A DNA stretch of 64,000 nt. Source: Haloplanus aerogenes (GTDB lineage: Archaea > Halobacteriota > Halobacteria > Halobacteriales > Haloferacaceae). Every line of letters starts with the position of its first letter. The stretch's first letter is position 1. Position numbers and translations under genes: made by a program. Of this stretch, positions 26,282 to 45,802 are shown piece by piece. Under the pieces are notes generated by a model. The model was given only the letters and a program-made list of their open reading frames with translations, was not told where the DNA came from and did no database searches. The DNA is taken from assembly GCF_003856835.1 (NCBI RefSeq), contig NZ_CP034145.1, positions 1,612,001 to 1,676,000 of the forward strand, in the 5' to 3' direction.

Positions 26282-28195
26282 ATGACCGACGACGCTTACA
26301 ACCTGTCACGGCGGAAGGCGCTGGCCGCACTCGGGGCCATCGGGGCCGCCTCTGCGGGCACGGGTCTCGGGACTTCCGCGTTCTTCAGCGATCAGGAAAC
26401 GTTCGAAAACAATCGACTCGTCGCGGGCACGCTCGACATGAAGGTCAGTTGGGCGGAGCATTACAGCGACTGGAGCGAGGACGAGGCCCAGTACGCGCAC
26501 ATGGAGGGCGGCGAGTTGGTCATCGACGATCTGGATGGATTCATGGCGGCCACGTTGCAGGAGCAGTATCCGCCGGGTGGACTCGGCCCGAACGAGGACC
26601 CCTGCGACGTGCTCGCTGACGTGCCGGAGGACCTCGACCTTGGGGGACAACCCCGGCCGCTGATCGACATCGAGGACGTGAAGCCGGGTGACTTCGGCGA
26701 AGTCACCTTCGACTTCGCGCTGTGTGACAATCCGGGCTACCTCTGGATGAACGGCGAACTGCTGGAGAACGCCGAGAACGGGCTGACGGAGCCCGAAGCG
26801 GACGACCCGGACGAGGGGGACGTGATGAACGCCGGCTTCGGCGCCGGGCTGGCCGGCCTCGTCGGCTCGCTCGCCGCAAGTCGGCTAGATACCGAACCGG
26901 ACGCCGACGGCGACGACGGTATCGTCACCCGGAAGAACGCGTTGCGTACTGCCACCGGCGCCGGGTTCGCCACCCTCGGCGTGGGTGCCTTCGCCGGGAG
27001 CGCCGCCGCGGCGGAGGGCGACGTGCTGGGGGCCGCCGACCTGCCCGGCCACTCCGTCGGCGTCGGCATCGGCTTCGACGGCACGTACGTCTACACGCTC
27101 GACGGTCTCCAGTCGTCTACCCTTCAGGTGTACACGCCCACACCTGGCGGGAGCGAGGCGTCGCCGGTGACGGCGACGCTGGTGGCCGAGAAGAACATCG
27201 TAACCGGCGGCGGCAGTCCCGTCTTCATCAGCACCGTCGACTGGGATCAGGGCCGCGAGAGGCTGTGGGCGGCGGACAACGGCGGCGGTGCCCACCTCAT
27301 CGACGTTGGCGATCCGACGGACGGATCGGAGGACGCAATCGCCGAGTTCCAGTTCTCGGCGCCGAGCGGACTGATCGACGGCCTCGCGTACGACGGCAAC
27401 GGCGACACCATCTGGTGGAGTCAGGACGTCCAGCCGACCCTCTATCACTTCGAGGCGGACGGCACGCAGATCGAGACGATCACGCCCACGGACCAGAACG
27501 GCAATCCGATGGGCATCAGTGGCGTGGCGACCGGGGTCGACGTGAACGGCCGACCGACGCTGTACGTCGGGAACCACACCGGCGCCGAGCGGATCATCCG
27601 CATCTACGCCGACGACGGCACCTACATCAGCGACTTCGAGACTCCGCAGGGCCGCATCGAGGACCTCGCGTGCGACCCCAACACGTACGACACGACGGCG
27701 CTTCTCACCATGGACGCCTTCGACGACACCTACTTCGCCTTTGAGATTCCGGAGGGGTCGTGTCTGGTTGGTGGCGTCGAGGAACCCCAGCCGCCGGAAG
27801 AGGGAATCGGCGAACTCGCCGACGCCCTGCAGGTCACCATCTGGTACGACGACGACTGTGACAACATCCTCGACGACACCGAGGAAGTCGTCTTCGAGGG
27901 GTCGCTCGCGGACGCGATGGTCCAACTCGGGACCGGCAACGGAATCCCGCTCGCGGGCGACATCGACGCCGCGCAGGGCGGCGGGACCGGACGCAACTGT
28001 TACAGCGCGACCCAGCGCCACTGCATAGGCTTCCGGTGGGATCTGCCGGTGGATCACGCCAACGAGATCCAGTCCGACTCCGTCCGGTTCGACCTCGGCT
28101 TCTACACCGAGCAGTGCCGCCACAACGACGGGAGCGGAATGGGCGTGCTCAACGAGGAAGAACTCGAGGAGGAGGAAGAGGAGAACGGCGCGTAG
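26282..28195 (+). CDS. Secreted TasA-like protein with inserted beta-propeller domain
   Basis: 637 residues from ATG 26282. An RR-type leader (NLSRRKALAALG) runs into the SipW-type end GLGTSAFFSDQETFENN. Residues about 30-180 and 507-620 match the two halves of the TasA-like proteins at 38508 and 40561 (for example VKPGDFGEVTF-LCDNPGYLWMNGELLENAENG, then ALQVTIWYDDDCDNI, then HANEIQSDSVRFDLGFYTEQCRHNDGSGM). Between them (about 181-506) is a beta-propeller-like domain with repeated DG-YVYTLDG, LYVGNHTGAERI and DWDQGRERLWAADNG blocks. A second signal-like stretch (about 213-245) lies at its start. TasA relatives form secreted fibres; fibre formation here is inferred. Confidence 0.75.
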   Translation: MTDDAYNLSRRKALAALGAIGAASAGTGLGTSAFFSDQETFENNRLVAGTLDMKVSWAEHYSDWSEDEAQYAHMEGGELVIDDLDGFMAATLQEQYPPGGLGPNEDPCDVLADVPEDLDLGGQPRPLIDIEDVKPGDFGEVTFDFALCDNPGYLWMNGELLENAENGLTEPEADDPDEGDVMNAGFGAGLAGLVGSLAASRLDTEPDADGDDGIVTRKNALRTATGAGFATLGVGAFAGSAAAAEGDVLGAADLPGHSVGVGIGFDGTYVYTLDGLQSSTLQVYTPTPGGSEASPVTATLVAEKNIVTGGGSPVFISTVDWDQGRERLWAADNGGGAHLIDVGDPTDGSEDAIAEFQFSAPSGLIDGLAYDGNGDTIWWSQDVQPTLYHFEADGTQIETITPTDQNGNPMGISGVATGVDVNGRPTLYVGNHTGAERIIRIYADDGTYISDFETPQGRIEDLACDPNTYDTTALLTMDAFDDTYFAFEIPEGSCLVGGVEEPQPPEEGIGELADALQVTIWYDDDCDNILDDTEEVVFEGSLADAMVQLGTGNGIPLAGDIDAAQGGGTGRNCYSATQRHCIGFRWDLPVDHANEIQSDSVRFDLGFYTEQCRHNDGSGMGVLNEEELEEEEEENGA

Positions 28196-34906: not shown

Positions 34907-35081
34907 ACGTGTACGAACCGCTCGCGTGTCGGTTCAATCACACGCTGCTGGCTACGTTTCCCGCGGTCTACGACGGCCTGTGGGCCAGCAGTGAGGGCCC
35001 GTTCCGGTCACTGTGGCGGGATGTGTGCGGCCCTCCGGGCGGAAACGGTGTGCCAGAAACCAGAAAATGTTGCTTGTTGAC

Positions 35082-35199
35082 GACGCTCGCCGCCCCTATT
35101 CCGGCGGCGACAACGACGCTCGCCGCCCCTATTCCGGCGGCGATAACGACGCCCGCCGCCCCTATTCCGGCGGCGACAACGACGCTCGCCGCCCTTTCG
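35082..35199. repeat. 33-bp tandem hairpin repeats (3 copies plus partial)
   Basis: Three copies of GACGCTCGCCGCCCCTATTC + CGGCGGCGAYAAC (35082-35114, 35115-35147, 35148-35180), plus a diverged part at 35181-35199. Each can fold (GGCGGCG against CGCCGCC around a short A/T loop). Copy 3 and the partial unit cover the stop codon and last residues of the minus-strand PUA-like gene, so the other copies extend its 3' end. Confidence 0.75.
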
Positions 35200-35680
35200 G
35201 AATCACCGACCGCAACTCGTCGTGGACGTACAGGCCGACGCCGATGGGTTCGACGCCGCCCGCGATTTCGTGGGCGACGATCAGGTAGCCCCAGTCGCCG
35301 TCCCACGCCGGTTCGAGGTCCTCACCGGCGAGAAAGCGCGTCGCCTCGTCGGGGTCGAGGACGATCACGTTTCTCGCCGCCGCCCGTCCGAACCGCTGGA
35401 CAGCGTTCGTCGTCGGCTTCCAGTGTTCCTGCCGCGTCCGCAGGAACGTCATACCCAGTCCCTCCACGTCGGTCGGAGAGGGCACGTCGTCCGCGAAGAT
35501 CCAGATTTTGCCCGCGCCCTTCTCCCAGAACGTGTAGCCGTCGAAAGTATCCTCGGGCAGGCCGAAGCGGTCGACCCACCACTCGATCACTTCGTGCCGG
35601 GTCGCTCGTCCCGCCACCTCGCGCTCGTCTGCGGTGGCCGGGAGGCGGTCGAATCGCTGACCGTCGTTGGCGTCGCTCAT
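35162..35680 (-). CDS. PUA-like RNA-binding protein (partner of the NOP methyltransferase)
   Basis: 172 residues from ATG 35680. The C-terminal part (RFGRAAARNVIVLDPDEATRFLAGEDL-WGYLIVAHEIAGGVEPIGVGLYV...RSVIPKGRR) looks like the PUA-type RNA-binding domain that ends bacterial RsmF. Here it is a separate gene overlapping the methyltransferase by ATGA. This arrangement points to a two-subunit RNA m5C enzyme. The C-terminus runs into the tandem repeat. Confidence 0.6.
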   Translation of the reverse strand: MSDANDGQRFDRLPATADEREVAGRATRHEVIEWWVDRFGLPEDTFDGYTFWEKGAGKIWIFADDVPSPTDVEGLGMTFLRTRQEHWKPTTNAVQRFGRAAARNVIVLDPDEATRFLAGEDLEPAWDGDWGYLIVAHEIAGGVEPIGVGLYVHDELRSVIPKGRRASLSPPE

Positions 35681-36609
35681 TCTCCCACCTCCAACTTCGC
35701 ACAGAAGAACCCACCCGTGTCGTTGTGGTGCGGGTAGATGCGGAGCGCCTTCTCGACGCTCGGGTCGTACTCCTCCCCTTCCCACTCGGTGACGCCGGGG
35801 ATGCCGTCGAGGGGGGCGTCGAAGTCGACGAGGCGACACGCCTCCTCCTGGAGGACGTGATTCAACACGGCCTCGTTCTCCTCCGGCGCGAACGTGCAGG
35901 TGGAGTAGACGACGGTACCGCCGGGGCAGGTGGCTTGGATCGCCCGCCGCAAAATGCCCTTCTGGACGCCGGCGACGCTGTGGACGTGGTCCAGACTCCA
36001 CGTGTCGAAGGCGTCGGGGTTCTTGCGGATCGTCCCCTCGCAGGAACAGGGGGCGTCGACGAGGGCGGCGTCGAACGCGTCAACGGTAGCGGGATCGTCG
36101 CTCCCCTCCCCTAGTGGTTTCAGCGAGAAGTTGCGCGCGTCCTGATTCGTGACGACGAGGTTCGTCACGCCGAGTCGTTCGGCGTTGTGGCGGAGGGCGG
36201 AGAGGCGGCCGAGGTTGTTGTCGTTGCCGACGAGAAGGCCGGAATCGTCCATTAGCGCCGCGAGTTGCGTCGTCTTGCTCCCCGGGGCGGCGCAGGCGTC
36301 CCACACCCGGTCGCCGGGCTGGGGGTCCAGAATCTGCGCCGGCAGATTCGACACTTCCTCCTGCCCGTGAATCCAGCCGTGGGCGTGGGGCCAGTTGCGG
36401 CCGGGCGAATCCTCGGGAAGGCGGAGGACGCCCGGATGCCAGTCGGCGGGTTCGTGGGCGATGCCCTCCTCGTCCAGTGCCTCGCGCACCCGCTCGACGG
36501 TTGCCTTGATGGTGTTGACGCGGACGACCGAGGGTAGCGGTCGGTCACAGGCCGCCCGGAAGGCCTCGACGTCGTCGACGAGCGATTCGTACCGCTCCAG
36601 CGGTGTCAT
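35677..36609 (-). CDS. RsmB/NOP-family RNA (cytosine-5) methyltransferase
   Basis: 310 residues of the NOL1/NOP2/Sun family. It shows the SAM-binding motif VWDACAAPGSKTTQL, an NDNNLGRLSALRHN acidic motif, motif IV DAPCSCEGT (catalytic-type Cys) and motif VI STCTFAPEENE (second Cys). It should methylate C5 of a cytosine in tRNA or rRNA. The N-terminus has the RVNTIKATVERVREAL motif. The protein has no PUA domain of its own; a PUA-like protein is encoded next to it. Confidence 0.9.
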   Translation of the reverse strand: MTPLERYESLVDDVEAFRAACDRPLPSVVRVNTIKATVERVREALDEEGIAHEPADWHPGVLRLPEDSPGRNWPHAHGWIHGQEEVSNLPAQILDPQPGDRVWDACAAPGSKTTQLAALMDDSGLLVGNDNNLGRLSALRHNAERLGVTNLVVTNQDARNFSLKPLGEGSDDPATVDAFDAALVDAPCSCEGTIRKNPDAFDTWSLDHVHSVAGVQKGILRRAIQATCPGGTVVYSTCTFAPEENEAVLNHVLQEEACRLVDFDAPLDGIPGVTEWEGEEYDPSVEKALRIYPHHNDTGGFFCAKLEVGE

Positions 36610-36671
36610 CGGCGGGGATTCGACGGGGGAGGGTTAGTGGGTTTCGACCGGCGGTCGGGGGCCGATCCGTC

Positions 36672-37562
36672 TCAGTTCGCCGCACCGGCGGCGCCGTCGA
36701 CGGTGACGGCGTCGGGATCGGAGGTCTCCGCGTCAGCGTCGGCGCCGCTGTCCTCCAGTACGCTCACGTCGAAGTCGGCTTCGAGTAGGCGCGAGCCACA
36801 CCCGGAACACGACACGGCGATCACGTCGTAGTCGCGACAGCATGAGCGCACGACTTCGTGTTCCATGTCGACGGGGGCGTCACACGCCGGGCAGCGTTCG
36901 AGGAACAGGCGGAGCGCCCCGAGTAGTTCGCTCCGCGCGGCGAGGGGGATGGAACGCCACCGCGGCACCCAGTCGTCGAGTTCGCGCGCGGCGGCCACGT
37001 CCGCCACGAACGCGGCCCGAGATTCCCAGCGGCCGATCCGCTCGCTGTCGAGGTTGGCGACGACTGCTTCGCCGTAGCGCTGGATATCCAGCAATTCGGC
37101 GTCGAGGTCGGTCAGCGCCGCGAGTTCGACCGCGTCGATCCGCTCGATGTCGTCGTCGGTCAGCCCGGTGCGCTCGGCGTCGATTTCGTCCATCCGCGCC
37201 TCCCACGCCGTTGCGAACGCCGGCGCGAGGACGAGGTCGTCGTCGCCGTCTTCGAGGACGCCCGCCGCGACGAGCGTCTCCTCCACGTCGACCGAGGTGG
37301 GAGCCGGTTCGATCTTGTCGAAGACGGCGAGGAGCCAGTCGGGGAAGTAGCGACGGGTGAACGTCGGCGTCCCCGGCACGAGGTAGCCACGGAGGTAGAT
37401 CGTCGCGAGGGCGACGACGAAGGCGACGGCGCCGAGCGGCGGAGCGACGACGCCAAGCGCCAGCGAGCCGACGGCCGCGATGGCGACGTTCGTGATCGTA
37501 CACGGGACACACCGGTTCTCGCCGGTGTAGTCGGGGTTCTGGTATCGGTGAATGAATGTCAT
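36672..37562 (-). CDS. Haloarchaeal membrane protein with C-terminal zinc-ribbon-like motif
   Basis: 296 residues. Two N-terminal membrane segments (about 23-40 and 42-60) are followed by a long acidic cytoplasmic part. Near the C-terminus CPACDAP...CSGCGSRL has two CxxC pairs, consistent with zinc binding. N-terminal RCVPC also has cysteines. No enzyme family was recognised. It stands between the methyltransferase and the winged-helix gene, all on the minus strand. Confidence 0.6.
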   Translation of the reverse strand: MTFIHRYQNPDYTGENRCVPCTITNVAIAAVGSLALGVVAPPLGAVAFVVALATIYLRGYLVPGTPTFTRRYFPDWLLAVFDKIEPAPTSVDVEETLVAAGVLEDGDDDLVLAPAFATAWEARMDEIDAERTGLTDDDIERIDAVELAALTDLDAELLDIQRYGEAVVANLDSERIGRWESRAAFVADVAAARELDDWVPRWRSIPLAARSELLGALRLFLERCPACDAPVDMEHEVVRSCCRDYDVIAVSCSGCGSRLLEADFDVSVLEDSGADADAETSDPDAVTVDGAAGAAN

Positions 37563-37641
37563 GGGTAGGTGCCGCCGACGGGCGGCGAGTTGTCGTCAGC
37601 AGGGACGCGTCGATGGGGCATAGGTATGGTCGCCTTGCCGG

Positions 37642-38205
37642 TCAGCGGTGGCCACGGTCCCGGAACCGGAAGAACTGGCCGACGGTCCGCCGGACGCGCC
37701 AGCGGTCGTCCCAGAGCTGGATGGCGCCGGAGACGGCGAACGTGACGAGCGTGCCGCTGGCCCAGAGCAGAGGATCGACCGCACCGACGAGCGGGAGCCC
37801 GGTCAGCGACGCGATCACCAGCACCAGTCCGAACACGCCGAGGCTCCGGTAGTACTCCCCCCACGTGATGCCGAGGCCGTTCAACACGTCCATGTGACGA
37901 TCGACCTCGCGGACGGCGGGCCGGAGGTGGACCAGACTGTGGTCGCGGTCGTACTCGACGACACCGACCTCGTGCAGTTTCGGGAGATGCGTCTGGTGGA
38001 GCGAGGTGTAGACGCTCTCGCGGACGCGGGCTGGCGGCGGCGACTCTCCCGTCTCGGCGGCCGCGATGGTCGTCGAGAGGTCACGCACGGTGACGGTGCC
38101 GGGGGAGGCGTCGAGACGCTCGATCACCGCCCGCCGCCGTTCGTTGGCGAGGATTCCGTGAATCTGGCACTCCGTCATGTGTCGTCGCGTAATCTGCCCA
38201 GTCAT
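37642..38205 (-). CDS. Winged-helix regulator with C-terminal membrane segments
   Basis: 187 residues from ATG 38205 (38178 also possible). The N-terminal winged-helix domain (about 12-100) fits the haloarchaeal DUF7344-like family: HGILANERRRAVIERL then VRDLSTTIAAAE and SVYTSLHQTHLPKLHEVGVVEYD. Two membrane segments follow (about 130-150, 152-172). It is a likely DNA-binding membrane-tethered regulator. It is divergent from the matrix gene cluster that starts at 38508, so that cluster is its most obvious target. Confidence 0.7.
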   Translation of the reverse strand: MTGQITRRHMTECQIHGILANERRRAVIERLDASPGTVTVRDLSTTIAAAETGESPPPARVRESVYTSLHQTHLPKLHEVGVVEYDRDHSLVHLRPAVREVDRHMDVLNGLGITWGEYYRSLGVFGLVLVIASLTGLPLVGAVDPLLWASGTLVTFAVSGAIQLWDDRWRVRRTVGQFFRFRDRGHR

Positions 38206-38356
38206 CACAACCGAAAAAATCGAGGTGCGAAGAGGGTATAGGTATGACCGGCCAGCCACGGAACGTCGCCGCGTGTAACGATCTATTACGGTTTCACCGG
38301 GTGATCCATCCCCCGTTCGCTCCTCGTCAGGGACGCCCATCCAGCCACCTAACGAG

Positions 38357-38397
38357 ACCGTAGATGCTGCTACGATGGCCGTAGAAGTCCCTACGGT
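38357..38397 (+). promoter_or_regulatory. CCGTAG/CTACGG dyads upstream of the matrix cluster
   Basis: ACCGTAG (38357) and CTACGGT (38391-38397) form an outer inverted repeat; CTACG (38370) and CGTAG (38380) form an inner dyad. Four half-sites in 41 bp, followed about 30 bp later by the TATA-like ACCTATACC, look like regulator binding sites. The nearby winged-helix gene is a candidate source. Confidence 0.45.
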
Positions 38398-38449
38398 GGC
38401 GTTTGGGATCGGGGCGGCGGTGATTACCTATACCCCCTGCCGTCGGAGG

Positions 38450-38507
38450 GGTGGTTGTCCCGAACCGAGGTCACGACACCGTCGGCCGCGGCGGGCAATC
38501 AACCACC
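38450..38507 (+). promoter_or_regulatory. Structured 5' leader of the vWA-TasA gene
   Basis: GGTGGTTG (38450-38457) pairs perfectly with CAACCACC (38500-38507), which ends at the base just before ATG 38508. Inside, a CCGAGGT...ACC-TCGG hairpin can form. The stem could hide the start region from ribosomes. Confidence 0.4.
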
Positions 38508-40397
38508 ATGAACGAAGACCGACAATTCAGCGTTTCCCGGCGGAAGGTACTCGCCGGGCTCGGCACCATCGGCATCGCCTCCGCGGGCGCAGGACTCGGC
38601 ACCACTGCCTACTTCAGCGACCAGGAAACCTTCCAGAACAACCAGCTGACAGCTGGGACACTCGACATGAAGGTCGACTGGGAAGAGCACTACTCCGACT
38701 GGTCCGACGACGAAGCCGCCTTCGCGTCCATGGGCACGATGGAGGAACACGACATCGAACTCCCCGCGCTCACCTCCGGTGGCCAGCTCGTCGCCGACGC
38801 CAAGCCGATCTACCTGACGCTCAACGGCGAGACGGCGGGCGAGAAGCAGACCGCCAAGGACGGCCTCTGGGACGCCACCTCCGTCGAGGCGTTCCCGGAC
38901 GTACTCAACGGTGACGGCTCTTACGACGGCATTCAGGACGCGTTCTCCGACGAGGAGGCGTGTGACATCCTCACCGACGTGGGTGGCAACTCCAGCGGCC
39001 TGAGCGACCCCCGCCGTACGCAGGGTACCTTCGCCGGCCAGACGACCGAGGAGGGCGACCCCCTGATCAACATTCAGGACGTCAAGCCCGGCGACTTCGG
39101 CGAAGTCACCTTCAGCTTCCACCTCTGTGACAACCCCGGCTACGTGTGGCTGAACGGCGACCTCATCGAGGCGCGCGAGAACGGTCACACCGAGCCCGAG
39201 AACGAGGACCCCGACTCCGTCGGTCCGTCCGACGAGGTGAGCGAACCCGGTGACCTCGAGACGAGTCAGGTCGAACTGCTCGACGAGATCGTCACGCGCG
39301 TCTGGTACGACCCGAACGGCAACAACCAGGTGGACATGCTCTCGGGCGAACTCGACATCATGATCGCCATCGACGCCTCCGGCTCCATCTCGGGCGACAA
39401 GAACCAAAGCGGCACCGAGGCGAACAACCTCGTGCAAGGTGTCGACGAGTTCGTCGCCGCCCTCGCGGCGTCGCCCGCCGACATCGAAGCTGGGCAGGTG
39501 CTGTTCGGAGAGAACAGCAGCCTCACCAGCTTCACCGGCCTCGGCTCGCCCGGCGCCCTGCCGACCATGGCGTCGGTGTACCCCAACAGCAACCGCGGCA
39601 ACACGCCCCTGCCTGCCGCGCTCGACGTGTGCGACCAGGAACTGGCCACCGGCCGCCCGGGCGCCGACAAGATCATCGTCGCGTTCACCGACGGTGGACC
39701 GAACTACAGTGCTGACAGCTACTCCGCGGGTGGCTACACCGCGCCGCGGGACGGCGTGGGCTACTCCGAGGACGGCAGCTCCGGTAACGGCTACGACAAC
39801 AACGGCGGCGGTACCGTGACCGTCGGCGAAGAAGAGGAGACGGCGCTGGTCGCAGAGACCATCCGCGACTCCGGCAGCCGCATCGTCGTCGTGAACGTCG
39901 CCGACGACCCCACCGAGGATCAGGGCAGCACCGGCGTCACGCTCCGGGAGTACCTGAGCGGCACCGGTTCCCCGTACCCCGAGGGCGGCATCGCTAGCTC
40001 CGGGTTCTACTTCGAGGTGGACCTGGCCAACTTGGAGGCGGTCGCCGACAGTCTGGCCGCGAGCGTCGCGGTCTCCGAGGAGGTGTTCTTCCAGGGCACG
40101 CTCCGCGAAGTGCTGATGGCCATGGCCGACAACGACGGCCGCGGTATCCCGCTCGACGGCGATGTCTCCACCGCGTTCGACGAGCTAAGCGATCCCGAGA
40201 ACGACGCGGACCGCGACTGTTTCGCCGGCGAGGGCACGACCCACTACGTCGGGTTCCAGTGGTGGCTTCCCATCGACCACGCGAACCAGATCCAGAGCGA
40301 CTCCGTGTCGTTCGACGTCGGGTTCTACACCGAACAGTGCCGCCACAACGACGGCGCTGGGATGGTCCCCGAGGAACCCGTCGAGATTCAGTCCTAA
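38508..40397 (+). CDS. Secreted TasA-like protein with inserted von Willebrand A domain
   Basis: 629 residues from ATG 38508. The leader has RR at 11-12 (VSRRKVLAGLG) and a SipW-type end (GLGTTAYFSDQETFQNNQLTAG). The TasA-like fold occupies about 35-280 and 521-620, with VKPGDFGEVTFSFHLCDNPGYVWLNGDL and the shared C-terminal HANQIQSDSVSFDVGFYTEQCRHNDGAGM. A vWA domain (about 282-520) is spliced in after VTRVWYDPNGNNQVD. Its MIDAS motif is complete: DASGS, the Thr of GNTPL, and FTDGG. vWA domains bind a metal ion and a ligand, suggesting adhesion by a fibre subunit. It is the first gene of a SipW-linked cluster. Confidence 0.8.
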   Translation: MNEDRQFSVSRRKVLAGLGTIGIASAGAGLGTTAYFSDQETFQNNQLTAGTLDMKVDWEEHYSDWSDDEAAFASMGTMEEHDIELPALTSGGQLVADAKPIYLTLNGETAGEKQTAKDGLWDATSVEAFPDVLNGDGSYDGIQDAFSDEEACDILTDVGGNSSGLSDPRRTQGTFAGQTTEEGDPLINIQDVKPGDFGEVTFSFHLCDNPGYVWLNGDLIEARENGHTEPENEDPDSVGPSDEVSEPGDLETSQVELLDEIVTRVWYDPNGNNQVDMLSGELDIMIAIDASGSISGDKNQSGTEANNLVQGVDEFVAALAASPADIEAGQVLFGENSSLTSFTGLGSPGALPTMASVYPNSNRGNTPLPAALDVCDQELATGRPGADKIIVAFTDGGPNYSADSYSAGGYTAPRDGVGYSEDGSSGNGYDNNGGGTVTVGEEEETALVAETIRDSGSRIVVVNVADDPTEDQGSTGVTLREYLSGTGSPYPEGGIASSGFYFEVDLANLEAVADSLAASVAVSEEVFFQGTLREVLMAMADNDGRGIPLDGDVSTAFDELSDPENDADRDCFAGEGTTHYVGFQWWLPIDHANQIQSDSVSFDVGFYTEQCRHNDGAGMVPEEPVEIQS

Positions 40398-40478
40398 TCC
40401 GACGATCCGGATCGGCTGACCCGTTCGTCCGGTCACGAGGCGGCAGTGCCGCCGCCCTCTGACCGATTCCCCGACCCC

Positions 40479-40539
40479 AACCCACGCGGAGCGCCCGGTA
40501 CGGCGCGGCCGTGAGGCGGTTCGACGCCGCCGGTGGGTT
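40479..40539 (+). promoter_or_regulatory. Conserved three-way-junction leader (copy 1)
   Basis: Closing stem AACCCAC (40479-40485)/GTGGGTT (40533-40539), hairpin GCGCC-CGGTAC-GGCGC (40491-40506) and hairpin GGCGG-TTCGACG-CCGCC (40515-40531). It ends 21 nt before ATG 40561 and is followed by an SD-like GAGGGAG. The same design, with different stem bases, precedes the gene at 42646. Confidence 0.55.
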
Positions 40540-40560
40540 TCCCCCCGAGGGAGCACTCCC

Positions 40561-41613
40561 ATGACAAAACTCACACTCACTCGCCGCCGCCTGCTCGCCG
40601 GTCTCGGCACCATCGGTGTCGCTTCCGCCGGTGCCGGCCTCGGCACGACCGCCTACTTCTCCGACCAGGAGACGTTCGAGAACAACCAGTTGACCGCCGG
40701 CGAGTTCGACCTCAAGATGGACTGGCAGGTGACCTACACCGGGCCGAACGGCTTCGAGTACGTCACGGCGTCGCCGGACCAGCTGCAGAACGAAGATATC
40801 GATACGCTCGCGCGCGACAACCTGTTTCGCACGATTTCGGGCGCCGACGGCATTCGCGACCCCATCGACTCCCGCGACACCATCGCGAACCGGGCGTTTA
40901 GCTCCGACTACGACGACCTCACGGCGGATCAGCAAGCGACCGTCGAGGACGCGTTCCGGTCGCAGTTCGCCGACGTACCGCAGGACCTCTTCGAGATGCG
41001 GCCGATCATCGACCTCGACGACGTGAAACCCGGCGACAGCGGCTCGGTGTCGTTCAGCCTGCACCTGTTCGATAACCCCGGCTACATCTGGCTGAACGGC
41101 CGGCTCGTCGAGGCGCGAGAGAACGGCCACACCGAACCCGAAGGCGAGGACCCCGACACCGTCGGCCCCGCGGACGAGGTGTCGACGCTCCTCGACAACG
41201 ACGTGGAACTCTTGGACGAGATCCGAGTCACCGTCTGGTACGACCTCGACGGCGACGCCGAGGTGGACACTGACGAACCCGTCCTGCTCGGCGGGAACGC
41301 CGATCCGACCGCGAATCCGACGCTCCGGGACCTGTTCGGGCTCCTGTCGACGGGGAACGGGCTTCCCCTCGACGCCACGGCAGATCCGCAGGCCGGCGCC
41401 GTCGACCGCGCTTGCTTCGCCAACTCGACGACGTACTACGTCGGGGTCCTGTGGGAACTCCCCGTCGACCACGCCAACCAGATTCAGTCCGATGGCGTCA
41501 CCTTCGACCTCGGGTTCTACGCCGAGCAGTGCCGCCACAACGACGGTGCCGGGATGATAGACGCCGACGAAACCACCCCGTCCGAACCGGAGGTCGTGAC
41601 GGACGACGAGTGA
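40561..41613 (+). CDS. Secreted TasA-like (camelysin/SipW-substrate) protein
   Basis: 350 residues, the plain form of the family with no inserted domain. The leader LTRRRLLAGLGTIGVASAGAG then GLGTTAYFSDQETFENNQLTAGEFDLKMDW combines Tat-like RR with a SipW-type cleavage region. Key core motifs are VKPGDSGSVSFSLHLFDNPGYIWLNGRLVEARENG, IRVTVWYDLDGDAEVDTDEPVL and HANQIQSDGVTFDLGFYAEQCRHNDGAGM. Relatives (TasA in Bacillus, AbpA in Pyrobaculum) form extracellular fibres by strand exchange. Fibre assembly here is inferred from similarity and from the neighbouring SipW peptidase. Confidence 0.75.
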   Translation: MTKLTLTRRRLLAGLGTIGVASAGAGLGTTAYFSDQETFENNQLTAGEFDLKMDWQVTYTGPNGFEYVTASPDQLQNEDIDTLARDNLFRTISGADGIRDPIDSRDTIANRAFSSDYDDLTADQQATVEDAFRSQFADVPQDLFEMRPIIDLDDVKPGDSGSVSFSLHLFDNPGYIWLNGRLVEARENGHTEPEGEDPDTVGPADEVSTLLDNDVELLDEIRVTVWYDLDGDAEVDTDEPVLLGGNADPTANPTLRDLFGLLSTGNGLPLDATADPQAGAVDRACFANSTTYYVGVLWELPVDHANQIQSDGVTFDLGFYAEQCRHNDGAGMIDADETTPSEPEVVTDDE

Positions 41614-41650
41614 TCGCCGCTCGACGCGACGATTACTCGCTTCACCAGCG

Positions 41651-42484
41651 ATGGACCGGACTGACACGCCGCCGCTCTCGCGGCGACAGATCCTGTTGGG
41701 CCTCGGCGCCGTCGGCGTGAGCGCCGCCGGCGCCGGACTCGGCTCGGCGGGGTATCTCGCCGACAGCGAGCGCGCGCCCAACCTCACCGTCGCCGGCGGC
41801 CTCGACATCGCCGTCGGCTACCGGTCGACGTACAACGGCGACCTGCTGGGTGCCGCACCCGGCGGCACCGACCCCCGGGCGGACTGTGAGGCGGCCGGCC
41901 TCGTCGACGGCGACGGTGTGCCGGTCGTCGACCTCGCGGACGTGAAACCCGGTGACTGCGGGACGATCACGGCGGCGCTGCACGTCTGCGAGAACCCCTC
42001 GCGGCTCTGGCTCGCCGTCGATCTGGTCGACGCGGCCGAGAACACGTATCGGCCGGAGGAGATCATTGCGGGCGACGAGACCGCCGACGCGGGCGAACTG
42101 CAGGAGTTGGTCGAGGTGACGGTCTGGATCGACGCCGACGCCGACGGCGTCGTCGACGAGGCCGAACGCGTCGTCTACGAGGGCACGCTCGCGGGGCTGG
42201 CGACGGTGACGGCCTCGGGCGTCCTCCTGACGGCCGACGACGACGGTCCGACCTGCGCGGAGGGTATCGTCACCGTCTCGGTCGCGTGGTGTCTGCCGCT
42301 CGACGGCCCGGATCACAACCGCGCCATCACCGACACCGTCGCGTTCGACTGCCGGTTCGCGGCGGTCCAGTGCCGGCACGATCCGACCGGCTGGAACCCG
42401 TTCGGCGAGGGTGACGACCCGCCGTCGTCGACGGGCACAACTGGCAACGAAACGACGGCTCCGTCGGCCGATTCGGTCGGGTAG
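41651..42484 (+). CDS. Divergent TasA-like secreted protein
   Basis: 277 residues. Leader LSRRQILLGLGAVGVSAAGAGLGSAGYLADSER is like the neighbours but weaker at the SipW site. Core features remain (LADVKPGDCGTITAALHVCENPSRLWLAVDLV, VEVTVWIDADADGVVD, QCRHDPTGWNPF). Six or more cysteines suggest disulfides. The C-terminal tail is Ser/Thr-rich (STGTTGNETTAPSADS), possibly glycosylated. It starts 37 bp after the gene at 40561 and is probably co-transcribed. A minor or regulatory fibre subunit is one possible role. Confidence 0.65.
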   Translation: MDRTDTPPLSRRQILLGLGAVGVSAAGAGLGSAGYLADSERAPNLTVAGGLDIAVGYRSTYNGDLLGAAPGGTDPRADCEAAGLVDGDGVPVVDLADVKPGDCGTITAALHVCENPSRLWLAVDLVDAAENTYRPEEIIAGDETADAGELQELVEVTVWIDADADGVVDEAERVVYEGTLAGLATVTASGVLLTADDDGPTCAEGIVTVSVAWCLPLDGPDHNRAITDTVAFDCRFAAVQCRHDPTGWNPFGEGDDPPSSTGTTGNETTAPSADSVG

Positions 42485-42556
42485 GACGATCCTACTGTTG
42501 CCGAACGAAGGGTACGGAAGCTATACCTAATCCCCATCGCCGCGCACTGTCGCGGT

Positions 42557-42627
42557 AACCCACGTTGGATGCGGGTTTCCGGCGCTGCCGGAAGCCGGTT
42601 ACGGCGGTTCGACTCCGCCGGTGGGTC
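42557..42627 (+). promoter_or_regulatory. Conserved three-way-junction leader (copy 2)
   Basis: Closing stem ACCCAC (42558-42563)/GTGGGT (42621-42626), hairpin CCGGC-GCT-GCCGG (42579-42591) and hairpin GGCGG-TTCGACT-CCGCC (42603-42619). A TATA-like GCTATACCT lies about 40 bp upstream, and the structure ends about 20 nt before ATG 42646. The hairpin loops match copy 1 while the first stem differs in sequence. Confidence 0.55.
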
Positions 42628-42645: not shown

Positions 42646-43464
42646 ATGACACACGGTTCACCACTCACACGACGGGAAATTCTGGCCGCCATCGGTGGCG
42701 TCGGCCTCCTCGCGGCCGGGCCGCGGGTAGCCGGCGCCCTCGGCTCCGACCCGTCGTTTACGCAGTACACGTACGCGCAGACGTCCGGCCCGGACCTCCG
42801 GGTCGCGTGGTACGAGCGGTACAACGGCGTCCTGCAGGAGGAGAGCAACCTCTTTTCCGACGGGCCGCCGCTGACGAACTCCTCCGACGCGTTCAACCAG
42901 TCGGGGGACGCCGGTCGCTTCGTCGACGTGACGGGGACGGACGCCGTCGCCACGGGGCCAGTCCTCTCCATCCCCAACGCCCAGCCGGGCGACGAGGGGC
43001 TCCTGCTGATCGGCCTCCGGGCCGAGGACGCTGCCGCCCGCGTCTGGCTCAGCGTCAGCGCGTACGATTTCGCCGAGAACTCGCTCGTCGAACCGGAGCG
43101 AGCCGAGGGCGACACCGACGACGAGGGTGAACTGCAGGACTACGTCGACGTGGAATGCTGGTACGACACCGGCCGCCTCGGCGTCGGTGGCTGCAACGGC
43201 GAGCGGGATTTCACCGAAGAGGCCGTCGTCGCCGCCGGCACGCTGGCCGAGGTGAGCGACGCCCTCACCGGCGGCGTCCCGCTCGATTTCGGCCTCGTGG
43301 GCGACGCCTGCATCGAGGCGGACACGCAACGCTGTCTCGCGCTTCGCTGGCGCATCGACCCCGCGGTGACGAACGTCATCCAGAGCGACTCCGCCAGCCT
43401 CGACATCGCCTTCGCGGCCACGACGTGTGACGACGCGACGAACCCCTTCGGAGGCGAGCGATGA
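42646..43464 (+). CDS. TasA-like secreted protein, first gene of the SipW operon
   Basis: 272 residues from ATG 42646. Leader LTRREILAAIGGVGLLAAGPRVAGALG has the RR-type motif but no clear SipW FSD site. The body has the family pattern (LSIPNAQPGDEGLLLIGLRAEDAAARVWLSVSAYDFAENSLVEPE, YVDVECWYDTGRLG, QRCLALRWRIDPAVTNVIQSDSASLDIAFAATTCDDATNPF). A long structured leader precedes it. Its stop overlaps the next start (ATGA), so the four genes 42646-46890 form a tight operon. Confidence 0.65.
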   Translation: MTHGSPLTRREILAAIGGVGLLAAGPRVAGALGSDPSFTQYTYAQTSGPDLRVAWYERYNGVLQEESNLFSDGPPLTNSSDAFNQSGDAGRFVDVTGTDAVATGPVLSIPNAQPGDEGLLLIGLRAEDAAARVWLSVSAYDFAENSLVEPERAEGDTDDEGELQDYVDVECWYDTGRLGVGGCNGERDFTEEAVVAAGTLAEVSDALTGGVPLDFGLVGDACIEADTQRCLALRWRIDPAVTNVIQSDSASLDIAFAATTCDDATNPFGGER

Positions 43465-44642
43465 GCGGCGACGACGGCCTCCGGATGAACCGCCGGCGCC
43501 TGCTGACCGCTATCTCGACCGTCGGCGCTGTCGGCGCGCTGACCGGACGCGGCGCCGCCGCGTACCTGACCGACCGCGAGGCGTTCGCCGATAACCGCAT
43601 GACTGCGGGGTCGGTGACCCTCGCCACAGACGGCGTCGACACCGGACAGGCGAGTCTCGGGTTCACTATCGACGACTACGGCTTCGCGAACCGCGACGCG
43701 GAGACGGTCTGTCTCGGCCTCGGCGAGGACTCGAACCCCGGCTGGGTGTGGATTCGGGCCTGTCCCGACCAGTCCGTCTTCGAAGACGCTCTCGACGCCA
43801 GCCTGACCGTCGACGACGAGACGGTTTACTCGGGATCACTCGGCGGCCTCTTCGCGTATCTCTCCGGATCGGACGGCGGCGGCGTCCTCCTCACGGCCCT
43901 CGCGGGCGACGGCGACCCCGTCAATCCCGGCGCGGACAGCGCAGTCTGTCTCACGGTCGCCATCTGGGCGCCGACGACGCTCGCGGACGAACCCGGCACC
44001 GTCCGAGCGCTGAAGGCGGCGTCGCCGTTCACGGTGATCATCGACGCCTACGCCGAGCAGTCCCGACACGTGCCGACGCCGCGGCGACCGGTCGCGGGGT
44101 TGAATCCCTCGTTCACGTTCCCCGCGTGTGAACCGACGGGCGGGAGCGAAGGCGACGAGGACGGCGACGGCTACGCCATCAGCAACGTCTCACTGTGTGC
44201 ATCGGGGCCGGTCGATCCGTCCGGGATCACGTGGACGGTCCTCGACCCCGACACGGGCACGCCTGTGACCGGGAGCGTCGACGAACCGTTCGCTGTGCGG
44301 ATCGAATCGACCGAACCGATCCAGTACGCCGTCGTCAAGGCGGGGCCGGAGTACCGGCGCTTCGACGTCGGCGGCGCGACGACGTTCACCGTCACCTCGA
44401 CGGGTGGGACGCTCCTCGACGTGCCGAAGAACTTCGCCCGATGTGCCTGCGAGGGCGACGGCGTCAAACTCGACTGGCTCGATACGACCGACGCCTTCGG
44501 GACACCCGTCGCGCTGTCGTGTGGTGACGAATCGGGTGGCAAGCCACCGGAGGACGACGCGAGTGGTGAGGAACCGACCGGGAGCGACGGTGCGCCCGAG
44601 ACGAGTGGCGGCGGCAGTCCGCCGAACGGAGACGACAAATGA
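43461..44642 (+). CDS. SipW-type secreted protein with C-terminal Ig-like region
   Basis: 393 residues. Leader MNRRRLLTAISTVGAVGALTGRGAAAYLTDREAFADNRMTAGSV ends in a SipW-type site. A TasA-like core runs to about residue 215 (SNPGWVWIRACPDQS, ATSPFTVIIDAYAEQSRHVPTP). The rest is a second domain (about 245-345, WTVLDPDTGTPVTGSVDEPFAVRI then YAVVKAGPEYRRFDVGGATTFTVTSTGG) and a low-complexity tail. It overlaps the genes on both sides (ATGA). It could be an anchor or cap for the fibre; this is inference. Confidence 0.65.
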   Translation: MSGDDGLRMNRRRLLTAISTVGAVGALTGRGAAAYLTDREAFADNRMTAGSVTLATDGVDTGQASLGFTIDDYGFANRDAETVCLGLGEDSNPGWVWIRACPDQSVFEDALDASLTVDDETVYSGSLGGLFAYLSGSDGGGVLLTALAGDGDPVNPGADSAVCLTVAIWAPTTLADEPGTVRALKAASPFTVIIDAYAEQSRHVPTPRRPVAGLNPSFTFPACEPTGGSEGDEDGDGYAISNVSLCASGPVDPSGITWTVLDPDTGTPVTGSVDEPFAVRIESTEPIQYAVVKAGPEYRRFDVGGATTFTVTSTGGTLLDVPKNFARCACEGDGVKLDWLDTTDAFGTPVALSCGDESGGKPPEDDASGEEPTGSDGAPETSGGGSPPNGDDK

Positions 44643-45802
44643 CACCAAACATTCGGCAGATGCTGGAGCCCCGGACGATCGGACGAGCGTTGCTCGTCGT
44701 CGTCTTGCTGGCTCTGATCGCCCCCTTCGTCGTGTACGCGGTCCCGGCGACCGTCGGCGGCGAGGCGAGTTACGTGGTCCTGACGGCCAGCATGACGCCG
44801 GCCATCGCGCCGGGTGACGTGGTCGTCGTCGACGCCGTGCCCGCACGGGACGTGCGCGTCGGTGACGTCATCGTGTTCGAACAGCAGGCAGGCGATTCCA
44901 TCCCGATCACGCACCGCGTGATCGCGGTCGACCGCCCGGCCGACGCTCCGCCAGAGTTCCGGACGAAGGGTGACGCGAACGAGGACGCGGACCTGTCTCC
45001 CGTGACACCCGACCGTCTGGTCGGCCGGGTCATGCTCACCATCCCGCTGATCGGGCACGTCATCCAGTTCGTCGGGACGCCCGCCGGATTCGTCGCGCTC
45101 GTGGTCCTCCCGCTCGGCCTGCTGGTCGTCTCCGAAGTCGTCGACCTGCTCCGGTCGGGACGGTCCGGTAACGTGGTCGCGAGCGACGGTGACGACGGTG
45201 GTGCTGTCTCGACGGCCGACGCCACTGTCGACGACGCGGCCCAGCCAACCGCCACCCCCGCGGACGATCAGGTCGTGATCACGCCCGCCGATCTGACGCT
45301 GACGAGCGTGGCGCTCGGCGCCTTCGCCGTCTACGCCGGCTACGCGGCCCTGCAGAACACGACGACCGTCTCGGTGACGCTCGCCGTCGCCGTCGGGGCG
45401 CTCTTTGCCCTCGCGGCTGGCATCCGCCTGTTCGGGCTCGCTGACGAGGGTATCGATGCCGGTACCGTGTCGGCCGCCGCCCCGTCCGTGTACATCCACG
45501 ACGCCCGCCCGCCCGGCCCGACCGTCGACGTGGCGTCGCCGGCCGACCTGCGAGCCATCGCTGGCGCGCTCGGTCGACCCGTCCTGCGCGACGACGGCGA
45601 CCGGTACGTCGTCCTCGACGGCTCGGTCACGTACGCCTGCGACGTGCCGGCGGAGCGTGACTGCGAGGACGCAGTCGAGGAGCATCCCGACACCGAACCG
45701 ATGGTCGACACCGATTCGAGCGTCGTGCCGGCAGCGGCGTCGGCGTCGGAGTCGGCCACGCCCTCGTCCGCATCCCCGAACTCAGGTGGTGCCGGCCGAT
45801 GA
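44639..45802 (+). CDS. sipW: SipW-like signal peptidase I (ER/archaeal S26B type)
   Basis: 387 residues. TM1 (about 16-36) precedes the peptidase domain, whose nucleophile is in LTASMTPAIAPGDVVVVD (Ser about 49). The second catalytic position is His in ITHRVIAV, as in the ER/SipW subgroup rather than Lys-type LepB. The RTKGDANEDAD motif is present. Further TMs (about 140-160, 222-242, 245-265) and a Ser/Ala-rich tail follow. It should cleave the leaders of the flanking FSD-type proteins. It overlaps both neighbours by 4 bp. Confidence 0.85.
   Translation: MTPNIRQMLEPRTIGRALLVVVLLALIAPFVVYAVPATVGGEASYVVLTASMTPAIAPGDVVVVDAVPARDVRVGDVIVFEQQAGDSIPITHRVIAVDRPADAPPEFRTKGDANEDADLSPVTPDRLVGRVMLTIPLIGHVIQFVGTPAGFVALVVLPLGLLVVSEVVDLLRSGRSGNVVASDGDDGGAVSTADATVDDAAQPTATPADDQVVITPADLTLTSVALGAFAVYAGYAALQNTTTVSVTLAVAVGALFALAAGIRLFGLADEGIDAGTVSAAAPSVYIHDARPPGPTVDVASPADLRAIAGALGRPVLRDDGDRYVVLDGSVTYACDVPAERDCEDAVEEHPDTEPMVDTDSSVVPAAASASESATPSSASPNSGGAGR

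Follow-up and report, generated by a model that had tools for sequence, protein, structure and literature searches.

Intercistronic tRNA-like elements before haloarchaeal fimbrial genes as predicted mRNA processing signals

In tRNA maturation, the tRNase Z cut falls beyond the discriminator and 13 nt 3' of the T-loop, and mitochondrial tRNAs punctuate the polycistronic transcripts that contain them. A t-element lying 5' of haloarchaeal 5S rRNA was reportedly described by Hoelzle in 2008 as a processing signal for tRNase Z and RNase P, and other tRNA-like elements of H. volcanii are said to have been uncleaved in vitro (in work by Hoelzle et al. of 2012, Biochimie 94:940). In H. volcanii, tRNase Z generates the 5' end of 5S rRNA by cutting at the t-element that precedes it, and in vivo both RNase P and tRNase Z process t-elements placed on either side of a crRNA (PMC4326828, PMC4946936, PMC3296008). 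The tRNA elbow, in which the D-loop residues G18 and G19 dock with the T-loop, is recognised by both RNase Z and RNase P (PMC4810234).

Here we analysed a 64,000-nt stretch of Haloplanus aerogenes DNA (the window), in which two leaders of a fimbrial gene cluster are compact tRNA-like acceptor/T-arm elements, that is, tRNA mimics of the t-element type. Leaders and 5S t-elements have an identical layout, made of a 5-bp acceptor, two or three nucleotides, GG, a short insert that sometimes holds an extra hairpin, a 6-bp T-stem with a TTCGAYT loop, and 13 nt from the T-loop to a U. As in a t-element, the acceptor stem and T-arm form a minihelix with a T-loop, and full D and anticodon arms are missing. 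The acceptor reads CCGAC/GTCGG before 5S rRNA and CCCAC/GTGGG in the leaders and, whereas the t-element sits directly 5' of 5S rRNA, the leaders precede fimbrial cistrons, where cleavage of the mRNA is a prediction.

With canonical tRNAs the leaders share the acceptor stem, the T-arm and the T-loop consensus, but most copies have no D-arm, anticodon arm or anticodon. A D-arm together with an anticodon arm with a 7-nt loop was not found in the leaders, and the missing anticodon arm excludes decoding tRNAs. As in mitochondrial punctuation, the position of the cuts would be given by a tRNA-type fold between cistrons, but the leaders are non-decoding half-tRNA mimics in archaeal operons. Viral tRNA-like structures are likewise a tRNA mimicry inside mRNA (elbow mimicry, PMC4810234), but they have an unrelated architecture at the 3' end of the genome, whereas the leaders are intercistronic or 5'. 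We found no report of this leader element in the literature, and the two leaders matched no family of Rfam release 15 at gathering or relaxed thresholds.

Two leaders in a fimbrial gene cluster

The cluster and its two elements, all on the forward strand of the window, are organised as follows.

38508-40397 (+): gene 1, SipW-type protein with a VWA domain; no element 5' of the gene
40479-40539 (+): tRNA-like element 1; acceptor 40479-40485/40533-40539, GG 40488-40489, T-arm 40515-40531
40491-40506 (+): middle hairpin of element 1, GCGCC/GGCGC; optional, without conservation as a homologous stem
40520-40526 (+): T-loop of element 1, TTCGACG; tRNA positions 54-60
40540-40560 (+): predicted 5' UTR of the processed gene-2 mRNA; predicted tRNase Z cut between 40539 and 40540
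40561-41613 (+): gene 2, SipW-type/TasA-like fimbrial protein, 350 aa (TIGR04088, PF12389)
41651-42484 (+): gene 3, starting 37 nt past gene 2; without element
42558-42627 (+): tRNA-like element 2; acceptor 42558-42563/42621-42626, GG 42567-42568, T-arm 42603-42619
42577-42593 (+): optional middle hairpin of element 2, TTCCGGC-GCT-GCCGGAA
42628-42645 (+): predicted 5' UTR of the processed gene-4 mRNA; putative cut between 42627 and 42628
42646-43464 (+): gene 4, exported protein of the fimbrial cluster, 272 aa; without a family match of its own
43461-44642 (+): gene 5, overlapping gene 4; without element
44639-45802 (+): SipW-like signal peptidase I (TIGR02228 2.4e-28, SipW 7.8e-22)

The structure model of gene 2 is weak (pLDDT 57.6), and the TasA fibre is its sole PDB match below 0.001. 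The first-pass annotation had described the two leaders as three-way junctions with a common closing stem, ACCCAC/GTGGGT, and this stem is indeed present in both (AACCCAC/GTGGGTT in element 1, ACCCAC/GTGGGT in element 2). The nearly identical final hairpin that it reported is also there, with a loop of 7 nt and not 6 (GGCGG-TTCGACG-CCGCC in element 1, GGCGG-TTCGACT-CCGCC in element 2), and in both elements a single G and then GTGGG follow CCGCC. A generic three-way junction does not describe them, since this hairpin is a T-arm and ARAGORN labels 42558-42627 as 'tRNA-???', its only tRNA call on the leaders. Both middle hairpins exist as well (GCGCC 40491-40495/GGCGC 40502-40506; CCGGC 42579-42583/GCCGG 42587-42591), but their differing stems fail as the evidence of covariation for which they had been taken, being an optional, variable insert. 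The distance of about 20 nt to the start codon was accurate: ATG 40561 lies 22 nt, and ATG 42646 19 nt, past GTGGGT. By folding energy against shuffles, element 2 stands out (z=-3.6), while element 1 is unremarkable (z=-1.9, or -0.28 with flanks), and such scores are not decisive as sole proof.

Conservation, covariation and genomic setting

A covariance model built from 13 short leaders (R1) recovered element 1 at E=6e-7 and element 2 at E=2.2e-9 in a search of their whole genome, in which all 10 leader matches precede SipW-type genes; the next two matches after the leaders adjoin both 5S rRNA genes, directly 5'. Across 17 genomes the sequence before 5S reads ACCGAC-N2-3-TGG-...-CGACGG-TTCGATT-CCGTCG-GTCGG-C-A/G, with T beyond the cut, and shows covariation of its own. 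A model built from 5S t-elements only (R2), run on the same 3.5-Mb genome, ranked the two 5S elements highest (E 2e-12) and leaders next (1.6e-9, 2.5e-4, 3.4e-4), with no tRNA gene among the 10 matches listed, so that each model finds members of the other set. R2 matches almost all leader loci at E<0.01, many long-insert copies through the T-arm only, and its recognition of the leaders is strong for short-insert copies; as to the two in the window, element 2 was matched partially (E=0.015), and element 1 was not among the matches listed at E<=1 genome-wide.

Among 391 haloarchaeal genomes, R1 gave matches in 219 at E<=0.01, a tally that we rejected as a leader count given that its weakest matches include 5S t-elements. 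Because a 5S element reaches about E=1e-5 with R1 (for example in genome G041), stricter cut-offs were used, and leaders were counted in 132 genomes (E<1e-6) or at least 96 (E<2e-8). Outside the order of the window's organism, no match was listed at E<=1e-4 among 247 genomes of a phylum sample. The exact 3' half, GGTTCGANNCCNCCGGTGGGT, occurs at 22 places in 12 of 60 related haloarchaeal genomes, against none for the reversed-pattern control.

Eighty further regions were fetched and 104 covariance-model matches were aligned. Standard pairs make up 96.7% of pair cells, against at most 54% in slid controls; the alignment was fitted to the structure, which biases this percentage upward, but double changes do not arise from fitting. 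These number 67 against 15.6 in shuffles (0/500), affect 7 of 12 pairs, and include A-U to G-C, G-C to A-U and C-G to U-A, with covariation in both the acceptor and the T-arm stems. The proposal of the first-pass annotation that an RNA structure is selected before TasA-type genes is thus strongly supported. The consensus is CCCAC, 2-3 nt, GG, a variable insert, CGGCGG, TTCGAYT, CCGCCG and GTGGG. Nearly all of 102 leaders carry the T-loop TTCGAYN, and 91% of copies have the GG at offset 2 or 3 past the acceptor strand, a position that it takes in 23% when inserts are shuffled; as G18 and G19 dock with the T-loop in tRNA, the leader GG would be a natural candidate for the same contact. The acceptor is CCCAC/GTGGG in 75 of the 102, a uniformity beyond the needs of pairing that hints at an extra sequence constraint. 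The stems are 7-50 nt apart, with a median of 11, so most copies have no middle hairpin; inserts of at least 15 nt occur in 27 of 102 copies, and many of these, though not all, fold. The middle hairpin was therefore rejected as part of the conserved core.

The downstream genes encode SipW-type/TasA-like proteins (TIGR04088, PF12389) or fimbrial proteins of the DUF1102/Taf type. Of the 102, 67 are fimbrial if strict sequence signatures are applied and 96 if any short twin-Arg/Lys signal counts, and by genome the presence of the element is associated with SipW-type genes (Fisher p=2e-27). In the window's genome, a full element precedes 8 of 14 SipW-type genes, and two further ones (L219, L221) seem to have a degenerate element. 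The latter lies in the window, where the leader at 26333-26434 (contig 1638333-1638434) holds the possible degenerate element ATCCGATTCGTTCGGTGGGG. In annotated Natronorubrum and Halorubrum plasmids, SipW-type genes stand in rows with signal peptidase I last.

From the element to the start codon the median distance is 24 nt. On the 5' side, an ORF on the same strand (100 codons or longer) ends no more than 250 nt away in 93 of 102 leaders, at a median of 25 nt, and 52 of these ORFs are recognisably TasA-like. A+T upstream of the elements is flat overall, with no AT-rich peak, and a promoter common to all elements just upstream was rejected on this ground. The near upstream ORF and the flat A+T together indicate that most elements are intercistronic. 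The motif ATTAGCTAT was found in about seven copies only, all from the window's genus, 30-50 nt 5' of elements before probable first genes of fimbrial operons (L054 and L059-L062 in the window's genome; L106 and L134 in relatives). It is a candidate promoter or regulator site, and as some copies in this genome lie behind this probable promoter, not every element separates cistrons. Haloarchaeal genomes also contain a few t-element-like matches before non-fimbrial genes (L254 and L323, from G199 contig C4; L277/L324, L253, L257, L278, L136); three of them lie inside 1.3 kb, and a variant T-arm, GGTGCAA, also occurs.

Predicted cleavage and alternative readings

The 14th nucleotide past the T-loop is T in 17 of 17 5S elements and in 87 of 102 leaders, the following sequence being 13% T. 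Since the layout is that of the 5S trimming signal, fimbrial operons may become single-gene messages through the tRNA-processing machinery. We consider it likely that the leaders are intercistronic tRNA-like punctuation of fimbrial (TasA/SipW/Taf) mRNAs, with cleavage by tRNA-processing enzymes as the predicted outcome. The polycistronic fimbrial transcript would fold at the element into an 11-13 bp acceptor/T-arm minihelix without an anticodon arm, in which the GG could act as the elbow G18-G19. tRNase Z would then cut 13 nt past the T-loop, the way it releases tRNA 3' ends and the 5' end of 5S rRNA, with a possible second cut by RNase P on the 5' side of the element. Each downstream cistron would thus gain its own mRNA, starting with a 5' U and a short UTR (median 23 nt, as predicted over 102 leaders). 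For gene 2, the 13-nt rule common to 5S t-elements places the putative UTR start at 40540, with the sequence TCCCCCCGAGGGA and a weak hairpin only. A hairpin with at least four G-C pairs, mostly CCCC-loop-GGGG, adjoins the element in 63 of 102 leaders against 6 expected (element 1 has only a weak one and element 2 none), so that the processed UTR may often open with such a hairpin near the ATG; there may also be a role in translation once the cut is made. With separate stability and translation for each mRNA, fibre subunits could be made in different amounts.

The same covariation, T-loop and GG would also fit a tRNA mimic that stays uncut in the mRNA, where it binds a tRNA-recognising protein (for example an aminoacyl-tRNA synthetase, a modification enzyme, or tRNase Z in a binding role) or serves as an intercistronic insulator or translational control. 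This main rival to processing could account for the downstream hairpin, which lies at the ribosome-binding region, and for an acceptor more uniform than pairing requires. We nevertheless regard it as unlikely, as the layout and the U at the expected cut match a demonstrated tRNase Z substrate (PMC4326828) and the predicted cut falls 10 nt or less before the ATG in 10 leaders. The translational switch suggested by the first-pass annotation, in which a ligand, temperature or salt would toggle the three-way junction against a form exposing or hiding the ribosome-binding site, did not hold as a general mechanism and is very improbable. GTGGG does adjoin CCCC, with CCC at most 8 nt away in 76 of 102 leaders, which makes an alternative GGG:CCC pairing conceivable, but all five acceptor pairs are kept in the 26 of 26 leaders without a downstream CCC, the core is shared by the 5S t-elements, where no mRNA is involved, and the middle stem is optional. 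Apart from GGG:CCC as sole candidate, no conserved, mutually exclusive pairing tied to the ribosome-binding site was found in the leaders, and a layout identical to that of the 5S t-element speaks for RNA processing.

The clear resemblance to tRNA and the several copies per genome might also suggest functionless tRNA-gene remnants or a mobile repeat derived from tRNA, an origin that the compensatory changes in both stems, the fixed stop-to-start position and the tie to one gene class render highly improbable. As for chance hairpins in G+C-rich DNA, element 1 alone does fold no better than many shuffles; the hundreds of homologous instances, the empty reversed-pattern control and the covariation refute this explanation, whose probability is negligible.

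If the processing reading is true, essential tRNA-maturation enzymes also shape the mRNA ends of an entire class of archaeal surface-fibre operons, and a mechanism is on offer by which a single operon could yield its fibre subunits in unequal amounts. The haloarchaeal t-element, so far known as a signal for 5S rRNA and as a CRISPR tool, would then gain a natural mRNA regulon. Processing is directly testable by 5'-end RNA-seq and with purified tRNase Z.

Similar elements in phages and viral contigs

Actinobacteriophages carry unannotated mini-tRNA elements of the same layout before genes. In Mycobacterium phage Indlulamithi (NC_048824.1, about 35000-42400; L348, L349), 12 copies lie on one strand, against 0-1 in shuffles, each with a possible start codon about 10-52 nt 3', and the record annotates only CDS across 35-42.4 kb. 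The phage elements are 38-43 nt long and consist of a 5-bp acceptor, AAYGGTTTTC and the T-arm GGTTCGATTCC, before successive small genes; their stem sequences all differ and are still paired, a covariation that arises partly by construction. With a pattern that specifies the loop only, all five acceptor pairs were present in 25 of 29 matches in viral contigs. The phage copies support a general use of half-tRNA mimics. That such mimics are a general, convergent prokaryotic mRNA punctuation, in haloarchaeal fimbrial operons and in small-gene runs of actinobacteriophages, cut by host tRNA-processing enzymes, is an extension that we propose tentatively, with slightly less than even confidence.

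Runs of mini-tRNA-like elements were also seen in L353, L354, L357, L363 and L365, and A+T-rich viral contigs of IMG/VR contain single or tandem elements, such as CCCACTCTGGCGACTTGCAGCGGTTCGATTCCGTTGGTGGG (loci L303, L292, L293, L301, L288, L297, L302, L306, L307 and L310).
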